Shown: positions 1-43,512 of the stretch, piece by piece
Layout of the letters: every line of letters starts with the position of its first letter
Numbering within the stretch: position 1 is the first letter of the stretch
Source: a virus
IMG/VR virus record: IMGVR_UViG_3300004097_003605
Span: 1-64,000 of that record
Length of the DNA stretch: 64,000 nt
Reading direction: 5' to 3' (one strand)
Program-made: the position numbers and the translations under genes
Notes under the pieces: generated by a model
Seen by the model: the letters and a program-made list of their open reading frames with translations, nothing else
Told to the model about the DNA's origin: nothing
The model's database searches: none

Positions 1-55
1 GTAGAGCGAGCGGCTGTTAACCGCTAGGTTCATGGTTCGAGTCCATGTCGGGGAG
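1..55 (+). tRNA. tRNA-Asn (GTT), 5' end outside the window
   Basis: The anticodon arm is a five-pair stem (9-13 with 21-25) around a seven-base loop with GTT at 16-18. The T arm is 31-35 with 43-47 and has a TTCGAGT loop. The 3' acceptor strand is 48-54, the discriminator base is G55, and CCA is not encoded. The 5' acceptor strand and part of the D arm lie left of the window. tRNA genes are common integration sites, and everything to the right is accessory DNA, but no repeat of the tRNA 3' end was seen in this window. Confidence 0.93.
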
Positions 56-95
56 CTTTCGGTTTTTCAACGAACCGGCCACTGCCAAAGTTAAC

Positions 96-135
96 GCCCA
101 CTGCCCGTCTGTCGGGGAGTGGGCTTTTTTCTTTT
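96..135 (+). terminator. Rho-independent terminator after tRNA-Asn
   Basis: A GCCCACT / AGTGGGC stem (96-102 with 118-124) is followed directly by a T-rich run (TTTTTTCTTTT). It lies about 40 bases after the tRNA 3' end and probably terminates that transcript. The roughly 245 bases from here to the mcrC stop codon hold no convincing gene. Confidence 0.85.
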
Positions 136-380
136 ATGGCCAGTGGCTCGAATGGGTTGCGACGGCGGCCCGTGCAGGCCGAAAGTCTCAGGTTCGGCAG
201 AGAGCGAGTGGGGTGCGGAAGGGACCTTGAAGGTCTCGGGCGCGGCCCTAAGAACGCTGGCAAAACTCTCGAACTCTCGCGTGAACAACACTCTCGGATT
301 CAACGGGCCGGTTGCTTTCGGAGTCGGCAAGAAACCCTGTGGCCCAACTGCGATCCGCTGTTTCAGCAGATTCGGCGTGG

Positions 381-1496
381 TCAGTTCTGACTCGAGATGA
401 TGTCAGCAGGTAGTGCCAGCAACTCTTCTTCGATCAGCTCCCACGGCTTTGCGAGATCCACGGTTTCCCAACGGATCGAATGTCCCTGAATTGCGACTCT
501 CTCAGACAGGGCGTGCTCAACCGTCGGGTAGAGAAGGACGCCGGTTGACGTCCTGTGATGTTCCGAGCGATCTTCCTGCGACTTCAGGTACGCATAAATC
601 TGGAAGAGATGGTCGCGGCTGAAGGTCTGATTTCCCCAACGGCCGGTGACGAGAATCTTTGCTGTGAATTTCGTGTCGAGCACGATCAGGTGACCAGACG
701 GCCGATGCTGCAGGGCCAGGTCCGGTCTCATCGCCGGAAGAAACTCGGTCATTCCTTCTGCTGGCCACGCGAATGGCGGTTGCGAAGTGACCGTCCAGTC
801 GCGGAGGTGGTAGTTGTAGAACCGGGCGACGAAACGCTCGTAGGTGTCGTAGAGAGTGAACGCGTCCCGATCGAGTTGCGGCAATCCCGTAAAGCCCGAG
901 TCCTCAGTCGGCATTTGCCTCTTGCTCAGGAGAAAACAGATTGCGAGCATCAGTCGATAGTCGACATCGTGCCGATGTAATTGTTCCCGACGGATGTCGG
1001 ACACCTTCAGTTCGATCAGGTCGACTGCTTCCATCTCACGGACGATCCGTCGCAGCCGACCTCGCAATCCGTCGGCTGTTCGTCCATCTGTGCCGAACTG
1101 GCCAACCTGAACCATCCGCGCGAGTGTGCTTCGCACGATCTGGTTCCTGGGGACATTGGCACTGAAGACCTGAAACTGGCAGTACGCTCGCCCATGTTGA
1201 AACGCCAGTCGTTTCAGGCTTTCATTGAAGTCAACACGGCCGCGAATGCCCGCAATCTCGGCTGCGTGCGGCCGGTAGTCCCGCCCAAGACCAATGCGGA
1301 TCCGTTGTTGGATCAGATTCGCGAGAATCGTCGACAGTAGAGCGTCCAAAGTTGGGGCATTCTCGACTTCGGATTTCCAGTGGGACTTCAAATGCACGAC
1401 GTCCCAGGCATACAGCAGCATGTGCCAGAGATTCCGAACCGGAATTCCGGTCTTCGTCAGCTGAACTTCCTGTGTTGAACACTCCATTTCGATCAT
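381..1496 (-). CDS. mcrC: McrC-like subunit of a type IV (McrBC) restriction system
   Basis: This 371-residue protein is the likely nuclease subunit of an McrBC system, which cuts DNA carrying modified bases after recruitment by the McrB ring. The N-terminal part has the McrC pattern (a conserved motif around LWHMLLYAW near residue 25). The C-terminal third has a PD-(D/E)XK signature, MRPDLAL followed by IVLDTKF, where D and the DxK pair would bind metal. The start codon overlaps the stop codon of the upstream mcrB-like gene (ATGA), so the two are translationally coupled. A start nine bases further in is also possible. Function follows from the family and the pairing with McrB. Confidence 0.88.
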   Translation of the reverse strand: MIEMECSTQEVQLTKTGIPVRNLWHMLLYAWDVVHLKSHWKSEVENAPTLDALLSTILANLIQQRIRIGLGRDYRPHAAEIAGIRGRVDFNESLKRLAFQHGRAYCQFQVFSANVPRNQIVRSTLARMVQVGQFGTDGRTADGLRGRLRRIVREMEAVDLIELKVSDIRREQLHRHDVDYRLMLAICFLLSKRQMPTEDSGFTGLPQLDRDAFTLYDTYERFVARFYNYHLRDWTVTSQPPFAWPAEGMTEFLPAMRPDLALQHRPSGHLIVLDTKFTAKILVTGRWGNQTFSRDHLFQIYAYLKSQEDRSEHHRTSTGVLLYPTVEHALSERVAIQGHSIRWETVDLAKPWELIEEELLALPADIISSQN

Positions 1497-3604
1497 TTCG
1501 CAAGCAGCCCTTCCTCGGCCTGTTCAACCCGTCTCGCATTGTCGAACCAGTACTCCTTGAGTAGCGGAACAATTTCACTGCGAACGACTCCTTCGAACCA
1601 TGAACGGTCCAATCCAGAGAAGTCGTCGCCGCGCGGACAGAAGAAGCTGTGTCCGACCTGGTAGTTCTCGCCGAGCAAGGGATCGTCAGCAATCTCCTGA
1701 TTCAAGGTGATCATGCGCGTGGCCACCAGTTCCGCGAGCTCCGGCTGCATTTTTCGATCGGTCAGCCACTGGCGAAAAACTCGACTTGAGTACTGCGGCG
1801 TGAGCGTCATGAAGGCGAATCTGCGGCGCAATGCATAATCAACGATAGCCAGCGATCGATCGGCAAGATTCATCAATCCAATCAGATGCACGTTGGCAGG
1901 CACGTAGAACCGCGGCTCACCGTTATTCTGATAAACGAGCGGCACGGCGAACTCAGGTCCCCGCTTGTCTGCTTCGATGAGCATCAGTAACTCACCGAAT
2001 ATCTGACTCAGGTTTCCGCGATTGATCTCGTCAATGATGAAAACGAAATCGCGGTCGGGATCGCTCTGCGCTCGCTGGCAGAACTTGTAGAAGACGGCGT
2101 CCTGCAGCCCGAACGTTCCCGCCTGGTCTGGCAGTGGGCGATATCCCCGCACGAAGTCTTCGTACGAATACGTCTGGTGGAACTGGACCAGTTCCAGACG
2201 GTCATCTGCCTTCTCCTCCATCAGGGCGTATGCCAGTTTTCGCGCGATGAAGGTCTTGCCAACACCTGGAGCGCCTTGAAGGATCAGGTTCTTCTTTGCA
2301 CGAAGTCGGTCAATCGCGTGGGCAATCTCGGCCTCGGGCAGAAATACACCCGAGGCGATGATGTCCTCGATGCTGTACGGTTCCCCTGAACTACCATCGT
2401 CATCATCGGGGTCCGGTTCGGGAACGTCGTCTGAGCTCCACCATCGCTGACAGAACCAGCCATAGTCCTGGCTCGCCCCGTTCCAGATAAAGTCGATTAA
2501 CCGGCTCGAAAGATCGGTATGTCGGTAATCAGGATCAGTTCGCAGTCGCCAGATGGTTCGGCGGTCTGTGTAGAAATACCACTCCTTTGGCTTGAAGCCG
2601 GAGTCCCATTCCACCTCCAGCGTTCTGCCATCGCCACGATTGGCGACGACAGTGCCAATCGCCTTGATTGACATTCGCGAAACCGTGTTGCCACGCGCGT
2701 CAAACGGCAGGTTCTTTTTCTGTGTCGAGGATGACTTAATAGCAATTTGATCCCCGACTTTGATTGAGCGGACTTCTTCGAGGTACTTGTTCGTGTAACC
2801 GTTCTGCCAAACACCTTCGTCGAGGAACCGCTCTGTCTGGTCGGGCGGATCGGAATCGTTCCAGTAGGCGCCAACGAGCCAGTAATTATTTCCAGCCGGC
2901 AACTTCTTGCCGGGCTTGTCATCTCCGGTGTTAGTGGAGAGCCAGGCTTCGCGGGAAACCTCAGGCAGAGGTTTCCCCTTCTTTGCGACACTTTTGACTG
3001 CATCAATGTAGAAGCTGGCAGACAGACCCTCGGAAGGCAGATCGATCTTGAGATAGTCCCGGTTAATGTTGTCCAGATTCAAGAACGTGTCAGGGCGAAT
3101 CCAGAACAGTCCCATCGTGAGATTTGTAGCGACACCCCTGACATTGAGTGCCTCATCAAATGCCTCTGCGAATTCCGGACTGCCAATCGGATCGTCACTC
3201 AGCGCCAATCGAAACACGCGCCAGAGGGCCGAGACATCGTCGCGACCACGCTTGTCCTGGTAGGAAATGAACCATGAATTCTGGTTGTTCACAACCGGAA
3301 TGCCATTGAAGTCATCTGGAAGGGGCTTCTCTGCTCCGAGGAGCCTTTTGACCTCGGTGAGGATCGCCAGGCGTTCCTCGTTTCGAATCTGGCGGTTGAA
3401 GGAGCCAAGAAATGTGAAAGGGTCGATCTCCTTGATCAGAAACCGTTCACCGTCCTTGCCTTTGTCATTCAGCGGCGTGACCTTGATGCCATCCGAACGC
3501 AATTTATTGAGGCACTCGATGAGTTCAGGCTGTCGGTCTTCCCAGTCAAGAAGCAGACGGCCAATCTCTGTATAAAGCGGAATCCAGGTAAATGTATTTT
3601 CCAT
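1493..3604 (-). CDS. mcrB: McrB-like AAA+ GTPase with an EVE/PUA-like modified-base-reading domain
   Basis: This 703-residue protein should be the motor and recognition subunit of the McrBC pair. Residues 1-230 have no fold I recognise. Residues about 240-365 read like an EVE/PUA-like domain (YWLVGAYW, VGDQIAIKSS, then GTVVANRGDGRTL), a fold known to bind modified bases. The AAA+ module follows: Walker A GAPGVGKT near residue 445, Walker B FIIDEINRG, and the McrB-type sensor MNLADRS, where the usual motif is MNTADRS. The start is ATG with an AGGA-type ribosome site upstream. The modified-base-reader role of the N-terminal half is inferred; the GTPase core is clear. Confidence 0.87.
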   Translation of the reverse strand: MENTFTWIPLYTEIGRLLLDWEDRQPELIECLNKLRSDGIKVTPLNDKGKDGERFLIKEIDPFTFLGSFNRQIRNEERLAILTEVKRLLGAEKPLPDDFNGIPVVNNQNSWFISYQDKRGRDDVSALWRVFRLALSDDPIGSPEFAEAFDEALNVRGVATNLTMGLFWIRPDTFLNLDNINRDYLKIDLPSEGLSASFYIDAVKSVAKKGKPLPEVSREAWLSTNTGDDKPGKKLPAGNNYWLVGAYWNDSDPPDQTERFLDEGVWQNGYTNKYLEEVRSIKVGDQIAIKSSSTQKKNLPFDARGNTVSRMSIKAIGTVVANRGDGRTLEVEWDSGFKPKEWYFYTDRRTIWRLRTDPDYRHTDLSSRLIDFIWNGASQDYGWFCQRWWSSDDVPEPDPDDDDGSSGEPYSIEDIIASGVFLPEAEIAHAIDRLRAKKNLILQGAPGVGKTFIARKLAYALMEEKADDRLELVQFHQTYSYEDFVRGYRPLPDQAGTFGLQDAVFYKFCQRAQSDPDRDFVFIIDEINRGNLSQIFGELLMLIEADKRGPEFAVPLVYQNNGEPRFYVPANVHLIGLMNLADRSLAIVDYALRRRFAFMTLTPQYSSRVFRQWLTDRKMQPELAELVATRMITLNQEIADDPLLGENYQVGHSFFCPRGDDFSGLDRSWFEGVVRSEIVPLLKEYWFDNARRVEQAEEGLLAK

Positions 3605-3705: not shown

Positions 3706-4116
3706 TCAGTCTGCTGGCGACTCCTTCGCCTCACCCCACGCTCGCCGTTGCTTCCGCCAGTCGGGGATGGCGGCGATGGGTTGGAGTTGGCGGAGGTGGA
3801 GCGGGTCGCGGCCGGATTCGACCCGAGGCAGGAACAGCAGGTCTTCCTGGATGTCGGGAGCCAGCATCAGCAGATTCATGATCTGCGTGACCCGAGCCCG
3901 ACTGACGTTGCCGAGGTGGGCGAGTTCGGACTGGTTGTCGATCTTTCCAGCCTTGATCAGTCCGTCGAAGCGGATTGCCAGCGCCATCAGGCGGGCGACT
4001 CGCGGAATGCGTCCGGACGGACGCGGTGTGTCGTCCGGCGGGCCGTCGACCAGAACGCGGCGGCCACGATTCTGTCGCTGGAAGTGGATCTCGGCTTCGA
4101 CTCGAATCGGTTTCAT
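3706..4116 (-). CDS. Small HTH protein at the end of the recombinase operon
   Basis: This is a 136-residue protein. Its centre (residues about 60-100, SELAHLGNVSRARVTQIMNLL) has the pattern of a ParB/KorB-type helix-turn-helix. The N-terminus is rich in Arg and Pro, and the C-terminus after about residue 105 is not recognisable. The start overlaps the recombinase stop codon (ATGA), so it is coupled to that gene. Proteins of this kind are often encoded directly after large serine recombinases of the DUF2924-associated type. A directionality or accessory role is possible but is inferred only from position. Confidence 0.7.
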   Translation of the reverse strand: MKPIRVEAEIHFQRQNRGRRVLVDGPPDDTPRPSGRIPRVARLMALAIRFDGLIKAGKIDNQSELAHLGNVSRARVTQIMNLLMLAPDIQEDLLFLPRVESGRDPLHLRQLQPIAAIPDWRKQRRAWGEAKESPAD

Positions 4117-5705
4117 GATGCGTCTTCCTCGTCAGTGAATTCCTCGGTCAGTGTCTGGATTCCATTGGGATGAAACGTGACGGCGACCTTGTTGCGGGCA
4201 CCGTCGTAGTCGACCCGGGAAACCAGCAGGCTGATGACACGAACCTGTTCGCGGGGTGGCATGGATTCCCACAGCGGGTCAAACAGGGACATGGCCTGTG
4301 CGACTTCCTTCTGGTCCACGACCTTGTGACTGAGCGCGAGCGCCTTCTCACGAAGTTCGGTCATGCGTCGTTCGCCGTCGCGGATACGTTCCTGCAGGTC
4401 AGCCAGCCGATCGACGGCGGGCGATGCCTGATCGCTCGGCTTCAACTGGTCGATCAGACGTCTCACTTCGTCATTCCAGCGAACGAGTTCCTGTTCGAGA
4501 CCGTGGCGTTCGGCTTCCAGCCCTTTCACCAGTTCGTTGGCCTGCTCACGGGCCTGTGCGACGGTGTCGCGAATCAACTCTTCGTCTCGACCGACGCAGC
4601 GGATCTGGTCTACGACGAATCGTTCAATCTCAGTCGCGGGGATAGAGCGCGACGGGCATGTGTGCCATCCGCGTTTCTGCGCCGCCGAGCAGACGTAGTA
4701 GCGGTAGCGTTTCCCGTCCGGCTTCTTCGTGTGTGTCGGCACCATTGCCGCATCGCAGGGAACACAGCGCAGAATGCCCTTCAGTAGAGCGCCGAAGCGG
4801 TTCCGCACGAGCGCGCCGCCAGTGCGACCGTTGCGCTGGAGCAACGACTGCACGCGCTGCCAGGTTTCCGGGTCGACGATGCCAGCGTGCTCCCCTTCAT
4901 GGATTTCGTCCTTGTACCGCAGTTTGCCGGTGTACGTCACATTGGTGAGCAACTTGTGCAGACTCGACTTCGTAAACGTCTTCCCGCCGCGTTCAGTGCC
5001 CTTGCGGGTGATCCATCGCTTGTTGAACCATCCGCGATTCTCAAGTTCCTGAATGACGGCAAGCAGTGAGCGGTGTTCGAGGTACAGCTCGTAGATTATT
5101 CCCACGCGCACAGCCTCGTCCTCATTGACGATCAGCTTCGAGCCACGCGGATCGACGTCATAGCCCAGTATCGGCATGCCGCCTGACCATTTCCCCTTGC
5201 GTCGCGCTGCGGCAATCTTGTCTCGCGTCCGTTCCGAAATGATCTCGCGTTCGAACTGGGCGAAGGACAGCAGGATGTTAAGCGTCAATCTGCCCATCGA
5301 ACTGGTCGTATTGAAATTCTGCGTGACAGCGACAAACGACACGCCGTGCAGGTCGAACTTCTCCAGCATGCGTGAGAAATCCATCAGCGACCGACTGAGG
5401 CGATCGACCTTGTAAACGACCACGCAGTCGATTCGGTCGGCTTCAATGTCGGCCATCAGCCGCTTCAGCGCTGGGCGGTCCATGTTGCCGCCTGTGAATC
5501 CGCCGTCGTCGTACTTGTCGGCGACAAGTTCCCAGCCTTCCTGTACCTGGCTGAGAATGTACGCCTCACCGGACTCACGTTGAGCGTCGAGCGAATTGAA
5601 TTCCTGGTCGAGGCCTTCCTCTGTCGACTTTCGCGTGTAGACGGCACATCGAATCTTCGCTGGCGGCTTTTCCCGGCCATTGCGACGTTGAGAGAACTGA
5701 CTCAT
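4113..5705 (-). CDS. Large serine recombinase (integrase)
   Basis: This 530-residue site-specific recombinase very likely integrates and excises the element. The resolvase catalytic domain is at residues about 17-165, with the nucleophile Ser27 in YTRKSTEEG. Further catalytic Arg motifs are VDRLSRS and the SERTRDKI segment at the start of the long helix. The recombinase domain spans about 170-300. A zinc ribbon (RCVPCDA and later YVCSAAQ / HTCPS) lies near 325-370, with a coiled coil at about 390-470. It is co-transcribed with DUF2924 upstream (four-base overlap) and the HTH protein downstream. The gene is full length with no missing catalytic residue. Which DNA it integrates into cannot be read from this window. 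Confidence 0.95.
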   Translation of the reverse strand: MSQFSQRRNGREKPPAKIRCAVYTRKSTEEGLDQEFNSLDAQRESGEAYILSQVQEGWELVADKYDDGGFTGGNMDRPALKRLMADIEADRIDCVVVYKVDRLSRSLMDFSRMLEKFDLHGVSFVAVTQNFNTTSSMGRLTLNILLSFAQFEREIISERTRDKIAAARRKGKWSGGMPILGYDVDPRGSKLIVNEDEAVRVGIIYELYLEHRSLLAVIQELENRGWFNKRWITRKGTERGGKTFTKSSLHKLLTNVTYTGKLRYKDEIHEGEHAGIVDPETWQRVQSLLQRNGRTGGALVRNRFGALLKGILRCVPCDAAMVPTHTKKPDGKRYRYYVCSAAQKRGWHTCPSRSIPATEIERFVVDQIRCVGRDEELIRDTVAQAREQANELVKGLEAERHGLEQELVRWNDEVRRLIDQLKPSDQASPAVDRLADLQERIRDGERRMTELREKALALSHKVVDQKEVAQAMSLFDPLWESMPPREQVRVISLLVSRVDYDGARNKVAVTFHPNGIQTLTEEFTDEEDAS

Positions 5706-29725: not shown

Positions 29726-30363
29726 CGGCACCACTGATCAACATCGATGACTTTCAGCCGCTAGACCTGCTGGCGTGCTACGGCACGGACGCAGCGTCGA
29801 AGGCAATCTCGTGGGGCACGGCCTCGGTGCTGGCTCCGTCGCGATTGCGGCTGGGGCCATCGCACGTCGCGGTGATCTGCGAATACCACGACTCACCATT
29901 GTGGGTGGAGTCGACCACTCTGTGCCGCCATGCGTGTACTGTGCTGGGGTATCCGGTCTCGGGTTGTCAGTCGCATCAGCCGGAAGAACGGCTCAGTGAT
30001 TACGTTGAGGCTGGCGGGCACGTGGATGTTTATCGGCTCACGGCGGTCGACCAGTTGTCGCAGAGTGAGTCGGAACTGCTGACGCGGATTCTCGTGAGGC
30101 ATTTCATCGGAAAGCAGGTCACGTACGACTTCGGCGGAGCCCTGCTGTCGGGGACGCGGCTGTTTCGACACACGCGGCTGCTGCCCGGAGCGGATCTCAA
30201 CGAACTGTTCTGCTCGGAACTGGCAGCCAAGGTGCTGATGCGGCTGGGCCGGCTGAATCGGGACAACCCGACGAAGTACAGCCCGGCCACGCTGTTTCGG
30301 AAGCTCGTCCGTCAGGGCACGGTGCAGTTCCAGACGCGGTACGAACAGGAGGCTGCGAAGTGA
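29722..30363 (+). CDS. NlpC/P60 or YiiX-type cysteine hydrolase
   Basis: This is a 213-residue protein. LGPSHVAVICEY (near 45) supplies a His and LFCSELAAKVLMRLG (near 158) a Cys, in the circularly permuted order seen in YiiX/YebB-type papain-fold enzymes. Targets include peptidoglycan peptides and lipid-amide bonds. Its place after a membrane protein and before a secreted protease makes an endolysin role likely. There is no signal peptide, so export would need the holin-like partner. Confidence 0.76.
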   Translation: MTAPLINIDDFQPLDLLACYGTDAASKAISWGTASVLAPSRLRLGPSHVAVICEYHDSPLWVESTTLCRHACTVLGYPVSGCQSHQPEERLSDYVEAGGHVDVYRLTAVDQLSQSESELLTRILVRHFIGKQVTYDFGGALLSGTRLFRHTRLLPGADLNELFCSELAAKVLMRLGRLNRDNPTKYSPATLFRKLVRQGTVQFQTRYEQEAAK

Positions 30364-31643
30364 CACACCGATTTCTTTTCACGGCAGTGCTCCTGATGAC
30401 CGCATCGGTCGCCCATGCGGACGAACGCGATGCCGTCGTCCGTGTGGACGGCTGCACGGGATTCATCGTCGCCGACAATCTGCTCGTGACCGCGAAGCAC
30501 TGCCGCCATCCCGCCCGTCTGAAAGTCAAAGTGCAGGGGAAGGACGTTTCCGCAAGTCGCGTCTACGTGTACCGCGGTGAAGACGGTCCGGCGGTGTTTC
30601 AACTCGACGGTGGGCCGTTTGCAAGTCTGCCGGTCGCGAGCCGTAAGCCGGAGATTGGTGAGCGTGTCTATTCGCTGGGTTATCCCGGCGGGAACTGGGC
30701 ACGGATTGAAGGCGAAGTCAGCGGCGGCAACGGCGTTGATATCAACTACACCAACCATCGCATCGACAGTGGTAACAGTGGTGGCCCGCTGCTCAACGCA
30801 AGAGGTGAGGTCGTTGGAGTCGCTCTGCACGTTGCCGCCAATCCAGGAGTACACAGCTCCGGGTTCTCTGGCTGGCGAGTGACGACGGAGGCGATTCGCG
30901 CGGCACAGGGCGAAACGATCGAATTGCCGCAGCGCTACAGCCGACAACCGGTCGTCGTCGTGTTTTCCTCGACCAGTTGTTCGAGTTGCCGACAACTTGA
31001 GACCGACGTCGCGTCAGGCCAGTTCCGCGACTACCAGTTCCGATTCGTGAAGTGGGATCCGCAGATGCGGCAGTGGAGTGATCCGGAATTGTTCCGGGAA
31101 TTCTCGAACACGTGCCGTCCGACAGAACAACTCGGCTTTCCCACGATCTGGGTAAAAAACACAAGTCAATACCGGGTCGGCTATTCGGCTGCCCGACGAG
31201 GCGGTCTGCTCGGCTGGCTTTCAAACGCCGTACGGTCACTGGTGGAAGCAATCATCGGGCACGAAGAACCACCGCCTTTTCCGACACCGAATGAGGTTCC
31301 GATTCCACCGGTCACTGATCCGGCACCGGTCCCCGGACCACCATCCGAAGAAGCGGCACCCGACACTGCACTCCTGCGGCTGGCACGTGACCTTGCTGCT
31401 CTGCGTGACGAGGCGAGGGAGACACGCAGCGACTTCAACGAATTCCGCGAGTCCGGGGTCATCGGAAAGATTCGGGCCATCGCCAGGTTGCGCGAAGATA
31501 AGGACGACGCACTGGAAGCGGTCAACGCCGTTCGGGCTGATGTGGATGCAGTCCGCGACGACTTTCGGGAACGACCACTGCAGTTTCTGTGGGGGCTGTT
31601 TGGAACCATCACCGGGCTGCTTCATCGGAGGTTTGCTCACTGA
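30360..31643 (+). CDS. Secreted trypsin-like protease fused to a thioredoxin-like domain
   Basis: This is a 427-residue protein with a clear signal peptide (MTHRFLFTAVLLMTASVAHA, cleavage near residue 20). The S1-type protease has His in TAKHC, a plausible Asp at FQLDGG, and Ser in DSGNSGGP (near 140). A thioredoxin-like domain follows (residues about 198-265, VVVVFSSTSCSSCRQLE with CSSC, then QLGFPTIWVKN). The rest is Pro-rich, then helical with a C-terminal hydrophobic segment (FLWGLFGTITGLL). It is encoded inside the lysis-like cluster. Its substrate is unknown; cell-envelope protein cleavage or a role against host envelope defence is possible. Confidence 0.84.
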   Translation: MTHRFLFTAVLLMTASVAHADERDAVVRVDGCTGFIVADNLLVTAKHCRHPARLKVKVQGKDVSASRVYVYRGEDGPAVFQLDGGPFASLPVASRKPEIGERVYSLGYPGGNWARIEGEVSGGNGVDINYTNHRIDSGNSGGPLLNARGEVVGVALHVAANPGVHSSGFSGWRVTTEAIRAAQGETIELPQRYSRQPVVVVFSSTSCSSCRQLETDVASGQFRDYQFRFVKWDPQMRQWSDPELFREFSNTCRPTEQLGFPTIWVKNTSQYRVGYSAARRGGLLGWLSNAVRSLVEAIIGHEEPPPFPTPNEVPIPPVTDPAPVPGPPSEEAAPDTALLRLARDLAALRDEARETRSDFNEFRESGVIGKIRAIARLREDKDDALEAVNAVRADVDAVRDDFRERPLQFLWGLFGTITGLLHRRFAH

Positions 31644-35207: not shown

Positions 35208-36002
35208 ATGCCTGTCACGGTTCACGAGAAATGGGACAGCCGCGAAACGACGATCAGCGAAGACTCGACCGTCGATCTGCGGTTCGTGATTCGCGGCACG
35301 AACGACGACGCGGCGGCCAACTCGGCGCTGCTGTCGGCGTCGCCCGTGCTGTATGGCGGGCTTGTGCGCCAGAGTCTTCATACCGAGCGGATCGCCGAGT
35401 ACGAGTGGGAAGGCTCGGTCCGTTACGGCCGGTTCGAACCGCCTCAGACCGGCGACAGTTCCTTCTCGTTCGACACGGGTGGCGGCTCACAACACATCAC
35501 ACAGTCGCTGGCCACGGTTGGAGCGTGGTCAGTCGATGGGCCGCCTCCCGACTTTCGCGGCGCGATCGGAGTCACACGCGACAGTGTCGACGGCGTGGAC
35601 ATCACGGTCCCGGTCTACAACTTCAGCGAGACGCACTACATCAGTGTGGGCTTCGTGACCGCTGCCTACAAGGCGGCTCTCTTCTACCTCACCGGTCAGG
35701 TCAACAACGCGCCGTTCCGCGGGTTCGCTTCCGGCGAAGTGCTCTTCCTCGGCGCGTCCGGTTCGAGGCGAGGCCCCGACGACTGGGAGATCACGTACCG
35801 CTTCGCCGCCAGTCCCAACGTCGCCGGACTGGCCGTTGGCGACATGACAGGCATCGGCAAACGCGGCTGGGAGTATCTCTGGGTGCGGTATGAGGATGTC
35901 GAAGACACGGCGGCGATGGCACTCGTCAAGCGGCCGGTCGCGTCTTACGTCGAACAGGTTTATCCGTATGGCAACTTCGCGGGACTTGGCATTGGAGCGT
36001 GA
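35208..36002 (+). CDS. Late tail protein (unassigned)
   Basis: A 264-residue beta-rich protein (starts MPVTVHEKWDSRETTISEDSTVDLRFVI) without membrane or cysteine motifs. VNNAPFRGFASGEVLFLGASG, YRFAASPNVAGLAVGD and WEYLWVRYEDVED suggest a carbohydrate- or baseplate-like structural protein. It directly follows the tape measure, where tail-tip and distal tail proteins are encoded. The family is not one I recognise. Confidence 0.8.
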   Translation: MPVTVHEKWDSRETTISEDSTVDLRFVIRGTNDDAAANSALLSASPVLYGGLVRQSLHTERIAEYEWEGSVRYGRFEPPQTGDSSFSFDTGGGSQHITQSLATVGAWSVDGPPPDFRGAIGVTRDSVDGVDITVPVYNFSETHYISVGFVTAAYKAALFYLTGQVNNAPFRGFASGEVLFLGASGSRRGPDDWEITYRFAASPNVAGLAVGDMTGIGKRGWEYLWVRYEDVEDTAAMALVKRPVASYVEQVYPYGNFAGLGIGA

Positions 36003-36005
36003 CGT

Positions 36006-36641
36006 GTGGGAGATGCCTTCCGAAAAGTCCGGACCGGCGACGCCCTGCGAATTCCGGCTGAGACGTTCAACACGTTCATTGATGCCGCGCGCGATTTCAA
36101 AACGCGGCAACGTTCACTGGCCCGGCAGGTTGAATCCGAATTCTCGCAGGCAGGCATCATCCCGGTCCGTAATGACTCGGGCGAGGACCGCAGTCGGTTC
36201 GACGTGCTGGGCATCTGCGGTCCGGTGTTTCCGCCAGCGGTCAGCCTCACGTCGTTCCAGAACCGCGTCGCGCTCGCCGGAACGACGCCGTGTGAGGTCG
36301 CCCACCTCGGACGGTTCGTCGTGCTGCTCGAACCGGTCCGTGCCGGACGGATCGGCATGGCCTGTGTCAGTGGCGTCTGTGTGGCAAAGGTTACGGTTGA
36401 GGATCCCACGCATGAATTTGCAGACGTTGAGGACGGCAACCCGGAGAACCTGAAGTCAGCCGAATCCGGTTCCGCGTTTCTGCTGTGGACCGACGACCCC
36501 GGCGGTGATGGAGATGGCTACGACGGCGGATACGGCTACTGCGGTTACGGATACACGGGCGGCTATGGCTACGGCGGACCGGTGTGGGCGGTCATTCGGA
36601 TTGGCAACATTTGTCCGGGGCAGCAGTGGGGTGCGGTGTAA
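36006..36641 (+). CDS. Tail protein with Gly/Tyr-rich C-terminus (unassigned)
   Basis: A 211-residue GTG-start protein four bases after the previous gene. The N-terminal half (FRKVRTGDALRIPAETFNTFIDAARDF) looks like a small trimeric-fibre or needle protein start. The C-terminal part carries a GYDGGYGYCGYGYTGGYGYGG stretch interrupted by one Cys, a repeat type that occurs in surface-exposed or adhesive proteins, ending in VWAVIRIGNICPGQQWGAV. A host-contact role is a guess from position and composition. Confidence 0.78.
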   Translation: MGDAFRKVRTGDALRIPAETFNTFIDAARDFKTRQRSLARQVESEFSQAGIIPVRNDSGEDRSRFDVLGICGPVFPPAVSLTSFQNRVALAGTTPCEVAHLGRFVVLLEPVRAGRIGMACVSGVCVAKVTVEDPTHEFADVEDGNPENLKSAESGSAFLLWTDDPGGDGDGYDGGYGYCGYGYTGGYGYGGPVWAVIRIGNICPGQQWGAV

Positions 36642-36676: not shown

Positions 36677-39600
36677 ATGACAATCGTGAATGGAGCCGCG
36701 ACGCTGCTGGCCGATCTGACGCGACTTGGAATCCGTCTGGAACCGCGCGGCAGTCGACTGGCGTACTTCCCGCAGTCGCGGATGACGCCCGACCTGCTGT
36801 CCCGACTGGGACAATACAAATCGGAACTGTTGCCACTGCTGAACGGAACGTCGGTCGTCGCACGGACGCCGAAAGAGCAGAAGGCGGAGTCCCCGGTTGT
36901 CAGCACGGTCGCAACCGTTGACGTGACAGCGCCCGTCTCGGTGATCATCACCTGCCACAACTACGCGCGGTACCTGGAATCGGCGATCCTCAGCGTCCTC
37001 GGCCAGACTCAGCGGCCGACCGAAATTATCGTGGTCGACGACGCGAGCACAGATCACACGAAAGATGTAGCGGCCCTGTTTGCACGCGAGGGCGTCGAAT
37101 ATATCCGCGTGGAGCATCGCAGTACTCACCTGGCCCGACTGGCGGGCTTCAACCGGGCGCACGGTGAATTCGTCCTGTTCGTCGACGCCGACAACCTGCT
37201 CTCACGCGAGTTCATCGAACATGGACTGGCTGCATTTGACGCCAGTGACATCGGTGCTGTGTACGGAAACGTCGAGCGTTTCGGGATCGATACGGGCCGG
37301 ACGAATCGTCCTGCGGAGTTACCGCGTGAAGACATTTTCCGTGCGGCACTCGGTGATTGCTCTGCGATCATCCGCCGTAACGCACTGGTCTCCGCGGCAG
37401 CGTGGGACCGCACGCTGCCGGCGGAAATTCCGGCTCAGGCTTATGTCTATCAGAAACTTGCCCGGCTCGGCTGGAAGTTCCACCGTCACGACGGCGTGCT
37501 CCGCATCCGCACGCACGCCGGTCAGCAACACCGACGATTCGCCGATCAGCGAGCCGAGTATTTCGTCCGAGAGGCACTTTCGCTGCAGGACGTGACACTG
37601 TTTATCCCGCTCGCCGGGCGACACTTCGCCTGGGACCGAATGAGTGACTTTCTGCAGCAGCAGGTCTGGCCGCATCCGCAGACGCATCTGATCTTGTGCG
37701 ACACCAGCCAGAACCGACGATTCAGCGATCGCATTCGCGACTGGATCCGGCAGTGCGATTATCCGGACGTGCGACACATGATGTGTGCGCCGGGCCCGGC
37801 AGGTCTGGCTGACCGCGTACGCGGCGGCGGAACGGACGCGATCCGTTACCTCAACGAGGTCATGTGTCGCATCGCCAACCGCCTGCGGGCGACGGTCGAT
37901 ACCGAGTACACGTGGGTCCTCGAAGACGACGTGATCCCGTCGCCAGATGTGCTGCCGCGACTGATGCGGCATTTCCGCGAGAACGTCGGCACGGTCTCTG
38001 CGCCGTACCGGTCGCGTCAGGACGGACAGTACTACGTGTGGGATCGCGATCTCGGCAAAACGCCAGGCGTGCATCGCATTAACCGTCCTGAAGCAGATCG
38101 TCCTCAGACGCAGGACGTTCGTGGCACGGGATTCGGCTGCGTGGTGATGCGGAGCGATCTGCTGCGGAAGCACGTCTTCTCGATCCCACGCGGCGAACTC
38201 TGCTTTGACGTCCACTTCTTCCGCACACTGGAATCCCGCTGGCGACGCATCTGCGACTGGACATGCGAAGCCGAACACCTCTCCGCACCGAACAGTAGCC
38301 CGAAGAGACGCAAGGAGAAGTTCCCGGATCCGGTGTGGTTCCGGCAGGCAACGATGCGTCGCAGTGACTGGACACTGGATGAACTCTACAAACTGGTCAG
38401 CGGCACGTTCTCCGACATCAGCGAGCACTGTTCGACACTGAAAGAACTTGCCTCTCAGTGTGATCACGTCACGGAACTCGGCACGCGTTACGGCATCTCG
38501 ACCGTCGCTCTGCTGGCCGGACAGCCGGAGCAGTTCGTGAGCTGCGACCTGCACCGGCAGCCGACAATCGGCGTCATCGAATCAGTCACCGGTGAGACGA
38601 AGTTCCGCTTCATGGAAGGCGACAGCAGGCGGATCGATCTTGAGGAAACCGATCTGCTCTTCATCGACACGCTGCATGAGTACGACCAGCTCCGAGCGGA
38701 ACTGGCCCGTCACTCGGCCAAGGTCCGCAAGTGGATCGTGCTGCACGACACCGAGTCATTCCGCACCGAAGGCGAAGCTGGCGGGCGTGGTCTGTGGCCG
38801 GCTGTTGAAGAGTTCGTTCGCAATGGCCAGTGGCGGATCGCGAAACATCACGAGAACAACAATGGTCTGACCGTTCTCGAACGGATCGTCCACACGCCCG
38901 GCGTGTCTCTGATCACTCCGACCGGCGATCGTCCCGAAGCCTTCGCGTTGTGCGTCAAATGGATGCAGCGGCAGCAGTGCGAGAAGGTCGGCCCGCTGCA
39001 ATGGATCATCGTCGATGACGGACGAAAGCCGATTGACCGTTCGCTGCTCTCAGCTCTGGATTCTGATCGCTGGACCATCCAGTACATCCGCCGGGAGCCG
39101 CTACCAAAAGATCCGGCGCACACGCTGTGTCTCAACATGCAGCTGGCGCTGCCACACATTGCTCGCGACAAAGTGCTGATTATCGAGGATGACGATTACT
39201 ACGCCCCCGACTACATCACCACGATGGCCAGCTGGCTCGACAAAGCCGACCTCGTTGGCGAAGTCGGAGCGAAATACTACTACCTCGATTCCCGCTCCTA
39301 CTACCACTTCCGCGAACACCAGCACGCGAGCTGGTGCCGCACTGGCTTCCGTCCCTCGGTCATTCCCATTGTGTGGAAGGAAGCGGCCCGCACAAATCAG
39401 TGGTCGCTCGATCTACGGGTGTGGGAAGCATGGAGCGGCTCAAAGCACCCGTGGGTCGATGAGTCTGGCAGCCGTGCTCTGTGCATCGGCATCAAGGGAG
39501 TCCCCGGTCGGGCCGGAGCGACCTGGAAGACCGGACGGGCCAGCTATGCCGATCCGGGTTTGAAGCAACTGAAAACATGGCTCGGTGATGACGCGACCGA

Positions 39601-40321
39601 CTACGAACCACTACTGACGAGCCGCCAGCGAGTGAAGGCTCCGTCGGCAAAGGTCGTTGTCTACACCGCGATCTTCGACGGCTACGACCGGTTGCTCACA
39701 GACCACGTCGTCAACGACGGCGTGAATTACGTTTGCTTCACGGATGCCGACATCAAAGAACCCGGCCCGTGGGAATTGAGACGAGTCGAACGCACTCAGA
39801 AATCCGCCCGCCGTGAGAACCGCCGCTACAAGCTGCTCTCGCACCGCTGGTTTCCGGATGCCGACTACACAATCTATTTCGACGGCTGCTCGCGGTTGCT
39901 GATCGATCCGGTCGACCTGGTCAACTACTGCGAGTCATGCGACCCGCAAATGGCCCGGCGTAACGAAGCGAAGCTGTTCACGTGCCGACACCCGGAACGC
40001 GACTGCCTCTATGCAGAGGCCGACGTCTGCATCCGCACACGGCGCGATGATCCGGACACGATCCGCAGGCAGATCGAGCGATACCGCAAGGAAGCCTTCC
40101 CCGAGCATGCCGGTCTGCCGCACGGCGGCTTACTCATCCGTAAACGCGGCTGCGAGTTCTTCAATCAATGCTGGTGGGATGAGGTCATGGCAGACTCGTG
40201 CCGCGACCAGATCAGCTTTCCGTATGCCGTCCGTCGATCAGGCATCGGTCACGTGCTGCTGCCCGAGCCCATTGAAAAGTTCACCGAACGGCTGCGGCAC
40301 GCGCAGCCGTATCACATCTGA
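36677..40321 (+). CDS. Giant multidomain glycosyltransferase/methyltransferase with TubC-like N-terminus
   Basis: This is a 1214-residue protein with at least five modules. Residues about 8-55 match TubC-type docking domains (LLADLTRLGIRLEP, LTPxLL-type helix, YKSELLPLL). Residues about 85-300: GT2 glycosyltransferase with FVDADN. About 320-590: a second transferase-like module with LEDDV. About 615-770: SAM methyltransferase-like (ELGTRYGIS, LLFIDTLHEYDQ). About 780-985: a third transferase (WIIVDDG, IIEDDDYYAPDY), similar to the protein encoded at 42826. About 1000-1214: a fourth (YTAIFDGYDRLL, FDGCSRLL). It probably builds or trims a glycan on phage or host surface. Confidence 0.85.
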   Translation: MTIVNGAATLLADLTRLGIRLEPRGSRLAYFPQSRMTPDLLSRLGQYKSELLPLLNGTSVVARTPKEQKAESPVVSTVATVDVTAPVSVIITCHNYARYLESAILSVLGQTQRPTEIIVVDDASTDHTKDVAALFAREGVEYIRVEHRSTHLARLAGFNRAHGEFVLFVDADNLLSREFIEHGLAAFDASDIGAVYGNVERFGIDTGRTNRPAELPREDIFRAALGDCSAIIRRNALVSAAAWDRTLPAEIPAQAYVYQKLARLGWKFHRHDGVLRIRTHAGQQHRRFADQRAEYFVREALSLQDVTLFIPLAGRHFAWDRMSDFLQQQVWPHPQTHLILCDTSQNRRFSDRIRDWIRQCDYPDVRHMMCAPGPAGLADRVRGGGTDAIRYLNEVMCRIANRLRATVDTEYTWVLEDDVIPSPDVLPRLMRHFRENVGTVSAPYRSRQDGQYYVWDRDLGKTPGVHRINRPEADRPQTQDVRGTGFGCVVMRSDLLRKHVFSIPRGELCFDVHFFRTLESRWRRICDWTCEAEHLSAPNSSPKRRKEKFPDPVWFRQATMRRSDWTLDELYKLVSGTFSDISEHCSTLKELASQCDHVTELGTRYGISTVALLAGQPEQFVSCDLHRQPTIGVIESVTGETKFRFMEGDSRRIDLEETDLLFIDTLHEYDQLRAELARHSAKVRKWIVLHDTESFRTEGEAGGRGLWPAVEEFVRNGQWRIAKHHENNNGLTVLERIVHTPGVSLITPTGDRPEAFALCVKWMQRQQCEKVGPLQWIIVDDGRKPIDRSLLSALDSDRWTIQYIRREPLPKDPAHTLCLNMQLALPHIARDKVLIIEDDDYYAPDYITTMASWLDKADLVGEVGAKYYYLDSRSYYHFREHQHASWCRTGFRPSVIPIVWKEAARTNQWSLDLRVWEAWSGSKHPWVDESGSRALCIGIKGVPGRAGATWKTGRASYADPGLKQLKTWLGDDATDYEPLLTSRQRVKAPSAKVVVYTAIFDGYDRLLTDHVVNDGVNYVCFTDADIKEPGPWELRRVERTQKSARRENRRYKLLSHRWFPDADYTIYFDGCSRLLIDPVDLVNYCESCDPQMARRNEAKLFTCRHPERDCLYAEADVCIRTRRDDPDTIRRQIERYRKEAFPEHAGLPHGGLLIRKRGCEFFNQCWWDEVMADSCRDQISFPYAVRRSGIGHVLLPEPIEKFTERLRHAQPYHI

Positions 40322-40336
40322 AAGGATCACGCAGGG

Positions 40337-42220
40337 ATGCAGGTCTCCGTCATTATCACCTCTCACAACTATGGTCACTTCCTCGAACCGGCGATCCTCA
40401 GCGTCCTCGCGCAGACAACGCGGCCGCACGAGATTCTCGTCGTCGATGATTCGAGCACGGACAACACCCGCGAGGTCGCCGAAGGTTTCGCCGACCGGGG
40501 CGTGAAGCATCTGCGACTGGAAACCGGTAGCGTTCACAAGGCCCGCCGTGCCGGCGTGAAGCAGACGTCGGGCGATGTCGTGCTGTTTCTTGACGCCGAC
40601 AACTGCCTGGCACCGGATTACATCGAGTGCGGCCTCAAAGAATTTGTCAGTCTGAAAGTTGGCGTGGTCTACGCGGACCTGCAGCGTTTCGGCCAGTACG
40701 ACCACGACCGCACCAACTTCCCGGCGTTCACTCGCGGACGGTTACTGCGGTTCAACTTCGTCGATGCCTGCGCTCTGGTGCGTCGCGACGCTCTCGAAGT
40801 CTGCAATGCATGGGACACCGCGTTCGATGACTTCCTCACGCCAGAAGACGACTGGATGTTTCAGTGTCTGGCTCGAGACGGATGGGAGTTCCGCAAGCAG
40901 AAAGGACTCGTCTGGTATCGAACTCACGACGGCCAGAAGAACCGCCGGGCGTTTGGCGAGCGCAAGAGAGCAGGCTATTTCATTTTGCGGGGCCTGCATC
41001 TGCAGCAGGTGACACTATTCATCCCACTGGCCGGACGCGACTACGCGTGGGCGGAGCAGAGTCGGTTCCTGGAACGGCAGGCCTGGCCGCACGACCGTAT
41101 CCGGTTGATTCTGTGCGACACGAGCCAGAACCCGGAATTCACTCGAAAGGTCCGCCAGTGGATCGCGTCCTGCGATTACACCGATATCCGTCACTTCCAG
41201 TTCGCACCCGATCGCGCGGGCATTGCGGACGAGTCCCGTTACGACCGGCAGATTGAACACGACGTCCAGGTCGCGATGTGCCGTATTTACAACCGGCTGC
41301 GGGCGGCCATCGACACCGATTACGTGTGGGTACTCGAGGACGACATCATTCCGCCGGACGATGCCCTCGAACGCCTCATGAAACATTTCAGCCGGGACGT
41401 GGCCTGCGTCGGAGCACCCTATCCGTCCCGCTGGGATCCACAGTACGTCGTGTGGAACGCCGACCGAAAGCCTGGTCAAAAGGGTGTGCATCGTGCCTTG
41501 AAGCCAGCTGATGGCGAACCACAGGTGCAGCAGGTCCGAGGCATGGGCTTCGGCTGCACGGTCTTTCGTTCTGAAGTCCTGCTCGATCACATCTTCCGCA
41601 TGCCACGCGGCGAGCCTTATTACGATCCCTACTTCTATCGCAGCCTGCCCGATACATGGAAACGGATCTGCGACTGGTCCTGCGAAGCACAGCACCTTGG
41701 TCCGCGCGGACGCGGGGCTCAGGCGTATTGGGAAGGTCGCAAAGATCTGAGGTACTACCGTCAGGCTGTCGATCTGGCTCGGAAGCATGCCCCTGAAGCG
41801 ACGTCACTGCTCGACGTCGGTGGCGGAGTGAGTCTCGGCTGCCGTTACCTGGAGTGGTTCGACTGGATCACCGATCGCGTGTCCGTCGAACGAAACGACG
41901 GTGACTACACGCTTGACGGTGTCCAGGTTGAATTTGCCGACTTCTCGGTCTGGCAATCAACAAAACGCTTCGATGTTGTGATGGCTTTGCAGGTACTGGA
42001 GCATCAGCCTGACCCGGCTTCCTTCGCGCAGAAACTGCTGGCCACTGGCGGGATCATGATCATCAGCGTGCCTTATCGCTGGCTGGCTGGTTCGTGTGGC
42101 GATCACCGGCATGATCCCATTGACGAAGCGAAGCTCCATCAATGGTTCGGCTGTGAGCCACTCGAATCAAACATTGAGGACACTCGTCTGGTCGCTGTCT
42201 ACAAAGGGGTGGCCGGATGA
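40337..42220 (+). CDS. GT2 glycosyltransferase fused to transferase and methyltransferase modules
   Basis: This is a 627-residue protein paralogous to the middle of the giant protein upstream: VSVIITSHNYGHFLEPAILSV and DADNCLAPDY (GT2 module, residues about 1-210), then LFIPLAGRDYAWAEQSRF and VLEDDIIPPDD (second module, about 225-470). Residues about 480-620 form a methyltransferase (LLDVGGGVSLGC, VVMALQVLEH). It lacks the TubC-like N-terminus and the last two transferase modules. Its ATG overlaps nothing and follows 15 bases of spacer. Glycan synthesis is inferred; donor and acceptor are unknown. Confidence 0.86.
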   Translation: MQVSVIITSHNYGHFLEPAILSVLAQTTRPHEILVVDDSSTDNTREVAEGFADRGVKHLRLETGSVHKARRAGVKQTSGDVVLFLDADNCLAPDYIECGLKEFVSLKVGVVYADLQRFGQYDHDRTNFPAFTRGRLLRFNFVDACALVRRDALEVCNAWDTAFDDFLTPEDDWMFQCLARDGWEFRKQKGLVWYRTHDGQKNRRAFGERKRAGYFILRGLHLQQVTLFIPLAGRDYAWAEQSRFLERQAWPHDRIRLILCDTSQNPEFTRKVRQWIASCDYTDIRHFQFAPDRAGIADESRYDRQIEHDVQVAMCRIYNRLRAAIDTDYVWVLEDDIIPPDDALERLMKHFSRDVACVGAPYPSRWDPQYVVWNADRKPGQKGVHRALKPADGEPQVQQVRGMGFGCTVFRSEVLLDHIFRMPRGEPYYDPYFYRSLPDTWKRICDWSCEAQHLGPRGRGAQAYWEGRKDLRYYRQAVDLARKHAPEATSLLDVGGGVSLGCRYLEWFDWITDRVSVERNDGDYTLDGVQVEFADFSVWQSTKRFDVVMALQVLEHQPDPASFAQKLLATGGIMIISVPYRWLAGSCGDHRHDPIDEAKLHQWFGCEPLESNIEDTRLVAVYKGVAG

Positions 42221-42825
42221 CGAACGAACAACTCACCCAGCGTCGGGCGTTGTGGGATGCGTACCTGAAAGAGCACCAGCCCAACGCATCGGTCGCACAT
42301 CACCTGCAGCGAATGCTGTTCGCCTACACTCGGTATCCCGAGGCTGAATCGGCTTTGAGTCACTTGCCATGCGCTGGAAGCCATGTCCTCGACTTCGGCT
42401 GCGGCGTCGGTGACTACGGAGTCTCGTTCGCCCGACGTAGTTGGACTGTCACCTTCTGCGACGTCCCGGACGTCCTGAAGTTCGCGAGGTTCCGCTGCAG
42501 GCACGAAACGATCAATGCCGAGTTCATCGAGTCACCGACCGAGTTCCACGGTTTCGATGCTGTCGTCTTCGGCGAAGTTCTCGAACACCTGACAAACCCG
42601 CTGGAACTGCTCACCGCCTGCATCCAGCAAGTCCGCTGGATCGTCACGTCGAGCTACCCGCTTCCGCACAGTGACGAGTACTGGACCCGCTACCCGGATC
42701 ACACCGATGAAGCCCGTCAGCAGCAATCGGCCTGCCTGAGCCTGCTGCGATCGCACTGCGAATGCAGCCGGACCAGCGGAATGCTCTGCGTCTGGAAGAA
42801 CCGCTCACTGCCGGAGCCTGAGTAG
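42217..42825 (+). CDS. SAM-dependent methyltransferase
   Basis: This is a 202-residue class I methyltransferase: GSHVLDFGCGVGDYGVSFA (motif I, residues about 50-65), DAVVFGEVLEHLTNPLELL (motif IV region, near 112) and IVTSSYPLPHSDEYW. ATGA overlap with the preceding gene puts it in the same transcript. Small methyltransferases of this type modify sugars in surface polysaccharide clusters. That fits the flanking glycosyltransferases. Confidence 0.86.
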   Translation: MTNEQLTQRRALWDAYLKEHQPNASVAHHLQRMLFAYTRYPEAESALSHLPCAGSHVLDFGCGVGDYGVSFARRSWTVTFCDVPDVLKFARFRCRHETINAEFIESPTEFHGFDAVVFGEVLEHLTNPLELLTACIQQVRWIVTSSYPLPHSDEYWTRYPDHTDEARQQQSACLSLLRSHCECSRTSGMLCVWKNRSLPEPE

Positions 42826-43512
42826 ATGGCCGACCTGACGCTGATCACCTGCACGGCCGACCGGCCGGAAGCCTTCCATCTATGCGAACGCTGGATGGCA
42901 CGGCAGACGTATCGAGGCTCCATTCAATGGATCGTCGCTGACGGCGGTGAGAAACCCGCGAATTGCACCCGAGGTCAACAGCACCTGATCCTCGGCCCCG
43001 AACCCGACCCGCTGAAGAACTTCCGCCGAAACCTGACCGTCGCCCTGGAGCACGTCGAGTCCCGGATGATCGCGTTCATCGAAGACGACGACTGGTATGC
43101 CCCCGACTGGCTAGAAGCTGTAACCGGTTGGCTCACCAACGCCGACATCGCCGGCGAAATCCCGGCCCGATACTACAACGTCGCGTCACGTCGTTACCAC
43201 GAGCATGCCAACGGCACGCACGCGTCCCTGTGTCAGACCGCGATGCGTTCGTCGCTGCTTTGGAGTCTTCTGACTGCAATCGGGCATGATCGGGGACCTT
43301 TTGTTGATCGCACGCTATGGGACCAGGTTGCTGCAACGAAGCGTCAGCGACTTGAGCGATCTTGCCGCGTGATTGGCATGAAAGGTGTTATAGGTCGCGT
43401 TGGCCTTGGGCTTGGCCATGCTGATCACCACTTCGGATCCAGCGATCCAGATAGAGCAACTCTTGACCGCTGGATGAGTTGCGATGCCGGTCTGTTCTTT
43501 CCGAAAACTTGA
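42826..43512 (+). CDS. Glycosyltransferase, last gene of the glycan cassette
   Basis: This is a 228-residue protein. Its layout (LTLITCTADRPEAFHLCERWM, WIVADGG, then IAFIEDDDWYAPDWLEAVTGWL and MKGVIGRVGLGLGH) repeats the third transferase module of the giant protein at 36677, so a duplication within the cassette is likely. The start follows the methyltransferase stop directly. The last third, from about 43240, reads with lower GC than the rest, close to the putative prophage end. Confidence 0.82.
   Translation: MADLTLITCTADRPEAFHLCERWMARQTYRGSIQWIVADGGEKPANCTRGQQHLILGPEPDPLKNFRRNLTVALEHVESRMIAFIEDDDWYAPDWLEAVTGWLTNADIAGEIPARYYNVASRRYHEHANGTHASLCQTAMRSSLLWSLLTAIGHDRGPFVDRTLWDQVAATKRQRLERSCRVIGMKGVIGRVGLGLGHADHHFGSSDPDRATLDRWMSCDAGLFFPKT

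Follow-up and report, generated by a model that had tools for sequence, protein, structure and literature searches.

Why would a phage glycosyltransferase begin with a docking domain of the kind described from nonribosomal peptide synthetases (NRPSs) and polyketide synthases (PKSs)? The question is raised by a prophage in the IMG/VR record IMGVR_UViG_3300004097_003605, of which we analysed a stretch of 64,000 nucleotides (the window) that makes up most of the 71.6-kb record. Behind its tail genes lie four consecutive genes (36677-43512; plus strand, like the features of these genes and of g36006 given below), as described in an initial annotation made from the sequence, and they encode glycosyltransferase (GT) and methyltransferase modules. 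The first gene (36677-40321) specifies a giant protein of 1214 residues with a TubC-type domain at its N-terminus (TubC-GT). We consider it likely that this glycan assembly line is expressed late, docks through TubC to a C-terminal motif of the protein encoded immediately upstream, g36006, and equips the phage's own virion with a methylated glycan.

The giant protein begins with a TubC-type docking domain

Pfam, sequence search of the PDB and fold agree that the N-terminus of the giant protein is a true TubC-type beta-hairpin docking (betaHD) domain, of the short (YxP) subtype (residues 9-55; 36701-36841). The TubC_N profile (PF18563) scores 28.0 bits against a cut-off of 26, and 35-40 bits in whole-protein scans of relatives. 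A profile built from four of the phage domains matches AerJ (8aqq, 3e-11), EpoB (5t7z, 1e-7) and TubC (2jug, 2e-7) in the PDB. The AlphaFold model has an alpha-beta-beta-alpha topology, with helices at residues 3-16 and 38-57 and strands at 20-24 and 27-31 (mean confidence, pLDDT, about 87). Its best fold matches in the PDB are betaHD domains, namely EpoB, AerJ, TubC, Kj12A/B/C and a domain of the enacyloxin system, the closest at 1.3-1.6 Å; their probabilities are 0.89-1.0 and their E-values 0.01 or worse, because the domain is small. Residues 59-85 form a disordered linker (mostly pLDDT at or below 51) with the highest dN among all segments, in keeping with the flexible linker of about 20 residues that follows such domains. 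The initial annotation had called this N-terminus TubC-like, which the profile matches, model and fold bear out; the checks that it proposed, structure prediction and a search for partners, returned a betaHD topology and a candidate partner, g36006.

Condensation (PF00668) and carrier (PF00550) domains are absent from the whole 71.6-kb record, and we dropped the idea of an NRPS remnant, the record having no other NRPS domains. When the TubC N-terminus was compared by tblastn with phage and plasmid records, there was no phage match and one match to an NRPS on a cyanobacterial plasmid; relatives were therefore sought through the synteny of the structural genes.

The preceding, putative virion protein ends in a conserved peptide when a TubC-GT follows

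Scanning viral contigs for the conserved gene at 35208-36002, which precedes g36006 (36006-36641), yielded 80 loci. A TubC-GT gene lies directly behind the g36006 homologue at L003/L171, L085/L173, L174, L178 and L179, and also in two contigs from Planctomycetota genomes (L089 and L165), making eight phages with the window included. The same structural genes stand upstream in each, and the TubC-GT start codon either overlaps the upstream stop codon or lies within 36 bases of it. The host is probably a planctomycete, because relatives sit in Planctomycetota metagenome-assembled genomes, one of them matching the giant protein's C-terminal half at 92% protein identity.

In all eight phages the g36006 homologue ends in a free C-terminal [DENQ]QWGxV, an ending found in none of 52 complete homologues without a downstream TubC-GT; most of the latter run on into longer, often Ser-rich C-terminal parts. 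In g36006 itself (211 residues, GTG start) this putative docking peptide is QQWGAV (residues 206-211; 36621-36638), and no other of the 949 frames in the window ends in WGx and a hydrophobic residue. A second feature follows the same division. All seven TubC-GT phages in which the loop between two conserved strands was measured have 19-34 residues there, 4-8 of them Tyr; in 50 relatives that lack a TubC-GT the loop is 8-13 residues long and contains no Tyr. The corresponding Gly/Tyr-rich hairpin loop of g36006 (residues 162-193; 36489-36584) is a candidate acceptor site.

The AlphaFold model of g36006 has a confident beta-rich core, with the loop (residues 167-188) and the C-terminus disordered (pLDDT below 50 at the C-terminus), so that the upstream protein ends in a short disordered peptide as in known docking pairs. 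The core resembles a T1 capsid protein, the phi29 head-fibre base, HFTV1 and decoration proteins, along with many fibre-like proteins in BFVD, while neither g36006 nor g35208 has sequence relatives in the PDB. The fold matches, taken with a position kept by synteny in all relatives, modestly support a fibre-base or decoration-like virion protein, and g36006 is the probable docking partner of the TubC-GT.

The enzymes behind the docking domain vary. Downstream modules differ among the phages and include methyltransferases, further GTs and, in the L178 cassette, a sulfotransferase. At L178, L179, L089 and L165 the VDD and DAD motifs are gone from the first GT2 module but TubC and QWGxV are kept, as if this module now served mainly as a docking scaffold. 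A GT2-family match occurs somewhere in the record in 14 of 41 relatives tested, including some without TubC.

The same peptide pairs with the same TubC subtype outside phages

Of the genomes sampled, 31 of 392 in the phylum and 52 of 398 in the class contain TubC_N. Besides NRPSs, many of the matches are short open reading frames (ORFs) whose start codon lies at the stop of a gene of AAA_25, DUF3987 or D5 type. Such stand-alone TubC_N loci occur in Planctomycetota mobile elements (L134, L135, L143, L159, L160, L250, L252, L254, L257, L260, L278, L280, L286, L289, L302 and L308). The proteins upstream of them end in acidic or hydrophobic peptides, like NRPS partners (WGEL, EVEYL, EEGQV and others), and by this arrangement they look like docking pairs outside natural-product synthesis. 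Some resemble the phage system closely, with the same TubC subtype and an immediate upstream partner ending in WGx[V/L]; they differ in that no glycosyltransferase is attached and the upstream protein is replication-like. The initial annotation had found a TubC domain in this setting unexpected. TubC outside NRPSs and PKSs turns out not to be rare in the phylum, but its use on a glycosyltransferase paired with a virion protein is indeed unexpected.

TubC domains come in two lengths, the short form having one residue fewer between hairpin and helix. In a first set, WG stands at positions -4/-3 of the upstream protein in every one of the 15 short forms whose hairpin has an aromatic residue (8 from phages, 7 stand-alone) and in 0 of 34 other TubC forms. 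Excluding the phages leaves 7/7 versus 0/34 (Fisher 4e-8, an overstatement for reasons of descent given below), the upstream AAA and DUF3987 proteins ending in WGx[V/L]. In a second genome set, with forms assigned by reading the sequences and rows kept where the adjacent upstream gene was usable, W is at -4 in 8 of 9 short forms (6 WG, 2 WM) and in none of 26 long ones (Fisher 4e-7, to be read in the same way). Since the same pairing occurs on AAA_25, DUF3987 and virion proteins, these patterns favour WGxV and short TubC being a functional pair over coincidence.

A docking model and the points against it

In the solved Kj12 complex, the betaHD hairpin is extended by a strand that the last five residues of the C-terminal peptide supply (PMC6195595, PMC9113145). 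By analogy, the free QQWGAV of g36006 would add as a strand to the TubC hairpin of the giant protein, bringing the enzyme chain to g36006 just as docking in a megasynthetase leads a betaHD to the preceding subunit's carrier protein. The cassette would be expressed late and would modify the phage's own virion. No promoter turned up near the cassette in a scan that leaves planctomycete promoters out. The GT and methyltransferase modules would go on to synthesise a methylated oligosaccharide, with the Gly/Tyr-rich loop beside the peptide as its likeliest site, before or during virion assembly. At the virion surface this glycan may stand in for a protein fibre, given that g36006 homologues without the system continue into a longer C-terminal part.

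Several observations weigh against this model. The eight TubC-GT phages form one clade, and their acquisition of the system therefore counts as one event; a single gain may have brought in peptide, loop and fusion, in which case their co-occurrence is one observation. The short-form stand-alone domains likewise cluster on the tree, shared descent inflating the counts, and an independent-pairs test of subtype against peptide found one supported independent contrast, too few for significance; for both reasons the Fisher values overstate the evidence. L292, a new short-form pair, has no W. The virion status of g36006 rests on modest fold matches (E-values of 5e-3 in the PDB and 2.5e-5 in BFVD) and on synteny, and it is the composition of the loop that hints at Tyr as the acceptor. 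Finally, the phage TubC domains do not conserve the charged beta2 contact residues on which the salt bridges of NRPS pairs depend: the equivalent positions read R/A/F in the window and N/H/H, D/A/H, S/A/A and others in relatives. Judged by these residues, the phage TubC does not use the canonical salt-bridge code, and the contact must therefore differ in detail; the conserved Trp would be the obvious substitute.

The last point also feeds the best-surviving alternative, which we nevertheless regard as unlikely: the virion is glycosylated without any docking of TubC to a short linear motif (SLiM), TubC only dimerising the enzyme or being a leftover, and WGxV having another role, such as in virion assembly. 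The original TubC domain is indeed a homodimer (PMC6195595). A leftover or dimeriser does not readily fit the finding that the same WG peptide ends unrelated AAA_25 and DUF3987 proteins ahead of the same TubC subtype, nor its absence from g36006 homologues that lack a TubC-GT. We prefer the docking model.

The cassette encodes seven glycosyltransferase and three methyltransferase modules

Behind TubC_N the giant protein (ORF and Pfam; dN/dS 0.074 against L003) carries, in order, a GT2 module, a, with intact VDDAST and DAD motifs (36932-37588; Pfam and motif check), a GT-A-like module, b, with an LEDD motif (37589-38356; Pfam and paralogue comparison), an S-adenosylmethionine-dependent methyltransferase module (Methyltransf_24 in Pfam; 38444-38881), a further GT-A-like module, c, with EDDD (38900-39616), and a TOD1/MUCI70-type glycosyltransferase module (39629-40318; 72 bits in Pfam, PHROG 26101). 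The second gene (40337-42220) encodes a 627-residue protein with GT2, GT and methyltransferase parts and no TubC. It overlaps by 4 bases the gene for a 202-residue methyltransferase (42217-42825; Pfam), which abuts that for a 228-residue GT module (42826-43512), the final gene of the cassette and of the prophage. Pfam matches above curated cut-offs comprise TubC_N, Glycos_transf_2 (in three proteins), TOD1/MUCI70, Methyltransf_24 and Methyltransf_23, and comparison with the sister phage L003 shows purifying selection on all modules (dN/dS 0.05-0.17). The seven GT and three methyltransferase modules agree with the at least six and three first counted, and the duplications first noticed are real: residues 86-560 of the giant protein share about 50% identity with the product of the 40337 gene over 480 residues, making that gene a paralogue of its first half, and residues 743-977 (module c) share about 35% with the product of the 42826 gene.

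The phage at L085 suggests how this arrangement arose. There a single gene unites TubC and a GT pair, 63% identical in its GT part to the window's second gene, and the methyltransferase follows as a separate ORF. It therefore seems that a single ancestral unit was duplicated to give the window's giant-protein gene and second gene, with TubC kept in one copy.

Module c belongs to a widespread phage GT family: in viral contigs it matched more than 100 candidate stretches, hardly any of them with TubC. That it travels with TubC was rejected: among 50 phages sharing only module c, TubC was above the cut-off in one, the sister phage.

Could these enzymes instead act on the host? In lysogenic conversion they would change cell-surface glycans and so exclude other phages, as the initial annotation had proposed alongside glycosylation of tail proteins. 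The cassette lies at the prophage end, a frequent site of conversion genes, and the GT2 module has GtrB-like PHROG matches; in both respects it recalls the GtrABC systems by which temperate phages convert the O-antigen. Unlike those systems, it has no GtrA-like flippase gene (Pfam scan) and no membrane-type hydrophobic segment in any of its four proteins (simple hydropathy scan), which weakens the host-surface reading. In eight phages, moreover, it is closely tied to a late structural gene, and QWGxV and the Tyr loop sit on a virion protein. Conversion is in our view improbable, somewhat more so than glycosylation without docking. The proposal that the phage would glycosylate its own tail proteins gains greatly in strength from the QWGxV ending and the Tyr-rich loop of the protein upstream. 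Least credible of all is a cassette that glycosylates phage DNA or a host protein, with the adjoining tail genes a matter of gene order only: phage GTs can modify DNA (work cited in PMC12619734) and this phage carries its own DNA methyltransferase gene, but the conserved partner-like peptide and loop are on a virion protein, and base-hypermodification enzymes were not noticed beside the cassette, where no systematic search was made.

The cassette lies inside the prophage

The prophage occupies about 40 kb of the window and encodes a serine integrase (4113-5705, minus strand), a helicase, primase, terminase, portal, head protease/major head protein, decoration protein, major tail protein and tape measure protein; the conserved genes at 35208 and 36006 and then the cassette follow the tape measure gene. 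The sister phage L003 (IMGVR_UViG_3300037427_004795) is about 85% identical in nucleotides over 10.6 kb that take in the tail genes and the entire cassette. Because this homology covers both, stopping at 43437, and GC content falls from about 60% to 52% at about 43.4 kb, the cassette is inside the phage. Its phage origin, already proposed, is supported by the boundary and by the same TubC-GT gene in the same place in seven further phages.

The homology to L003 stops 75 bases short of the stop codon of the last GT gene (43437-43512), and the prophage end may for this reason fall within that gene, integration changing its C-terminus; ordinary mosaicism may account for it as well. A search for an attachment core, as short repeats shared between 3.5-4.3 kb and 43.4-43.5 kb, found nothing longer than an 8-mer.

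Bacterial defence genes flank the prophage, to the left of the serine integrase and to the right of 43.5 kb. The left flank (1-3604) encodes McrBC, and the right flank (43864-64000) a DruE-like helicase, a CARF/RtcR-type regulator, a PD-T4-6-like kinase and an HmaC-like protein. The island runs on into L002 with a DUF1156-like methylase and an SNF2-like helicase, both named by eye. Among the tail genes, 30360-31643 encodes a fusion of a trypsin-like protease (PHROG match) and a thioredoxin-like part (by eye).

Relation to known systems and significance

With the SLiM-betaHD pairs of NRPS and PKS-NRPS systems (TubC, EpoB, Kj12, AerJ, enacyloxin), the phage system shares a homologous N-terminal betaHD, a flexible linker and a partner encoded directly upstream with a short disordered C-terminal peptide. 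It differs in that the record has no condensation or carrier domain, the enzyme is a glycosyltransferase and the partner a virion protein; the connection between hairpin and helix is one residue shorter, and WGxV replaces the usual acidic peptide. The literature searched knows such docking pairs from NRPS and PKS enzymes and has no report of them in phages or with glycosyltransferases.

Virion glycosylation itself has precedents. Mycobacteriophages Che8 and Rita have glycans on capsid and tail tube (Freeman et al, 2023, as cited in PMC11256854 and PMC12619734), and phage-encoded GTs are thought to modify these phages' own structural proteins, as is proposed for the GTs that the window encodes next to structural genes. 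The passages of PMC11256854 and PMC12619734 on these phages do not mention recruitment by a docking domain, whereas in the present system a putative fibre-base protein is set apart by a probable docking pair and a loop rich in Tyr.

More tentatively, and with less than even confidence, we suggest that SLiM-betaHD docking may be a general recruitment code outside natural-product synthesis. Through it, Planctomycetota mobile elements would fasten accessory proteins to replication ATPases. A WGxV/short-TubC pair would have been moved by one phage lineage onto a fibre-base protein of its virion, which would hold a glycan assembly line on its substrate and let a Tyr-linked methylated glycan, perhaps sulfated in a sister phage, replace a protein fibre. 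The pairing raises a concrete question about the many stand-alone TubC proteins behind AAA and DUF3987 genes, and WGxV with short TubC would be a new, apparently distinct docking subtype, usable for engineering enzyme-substrate tethering. If the docking model is true, the phage tethers an entire glycan assembly line to its own virion protein, which would give a direct and testable answer to how a virion glycosyltransferase finds its substrate and suggests a virus that coats itself with a custom sugar structure.

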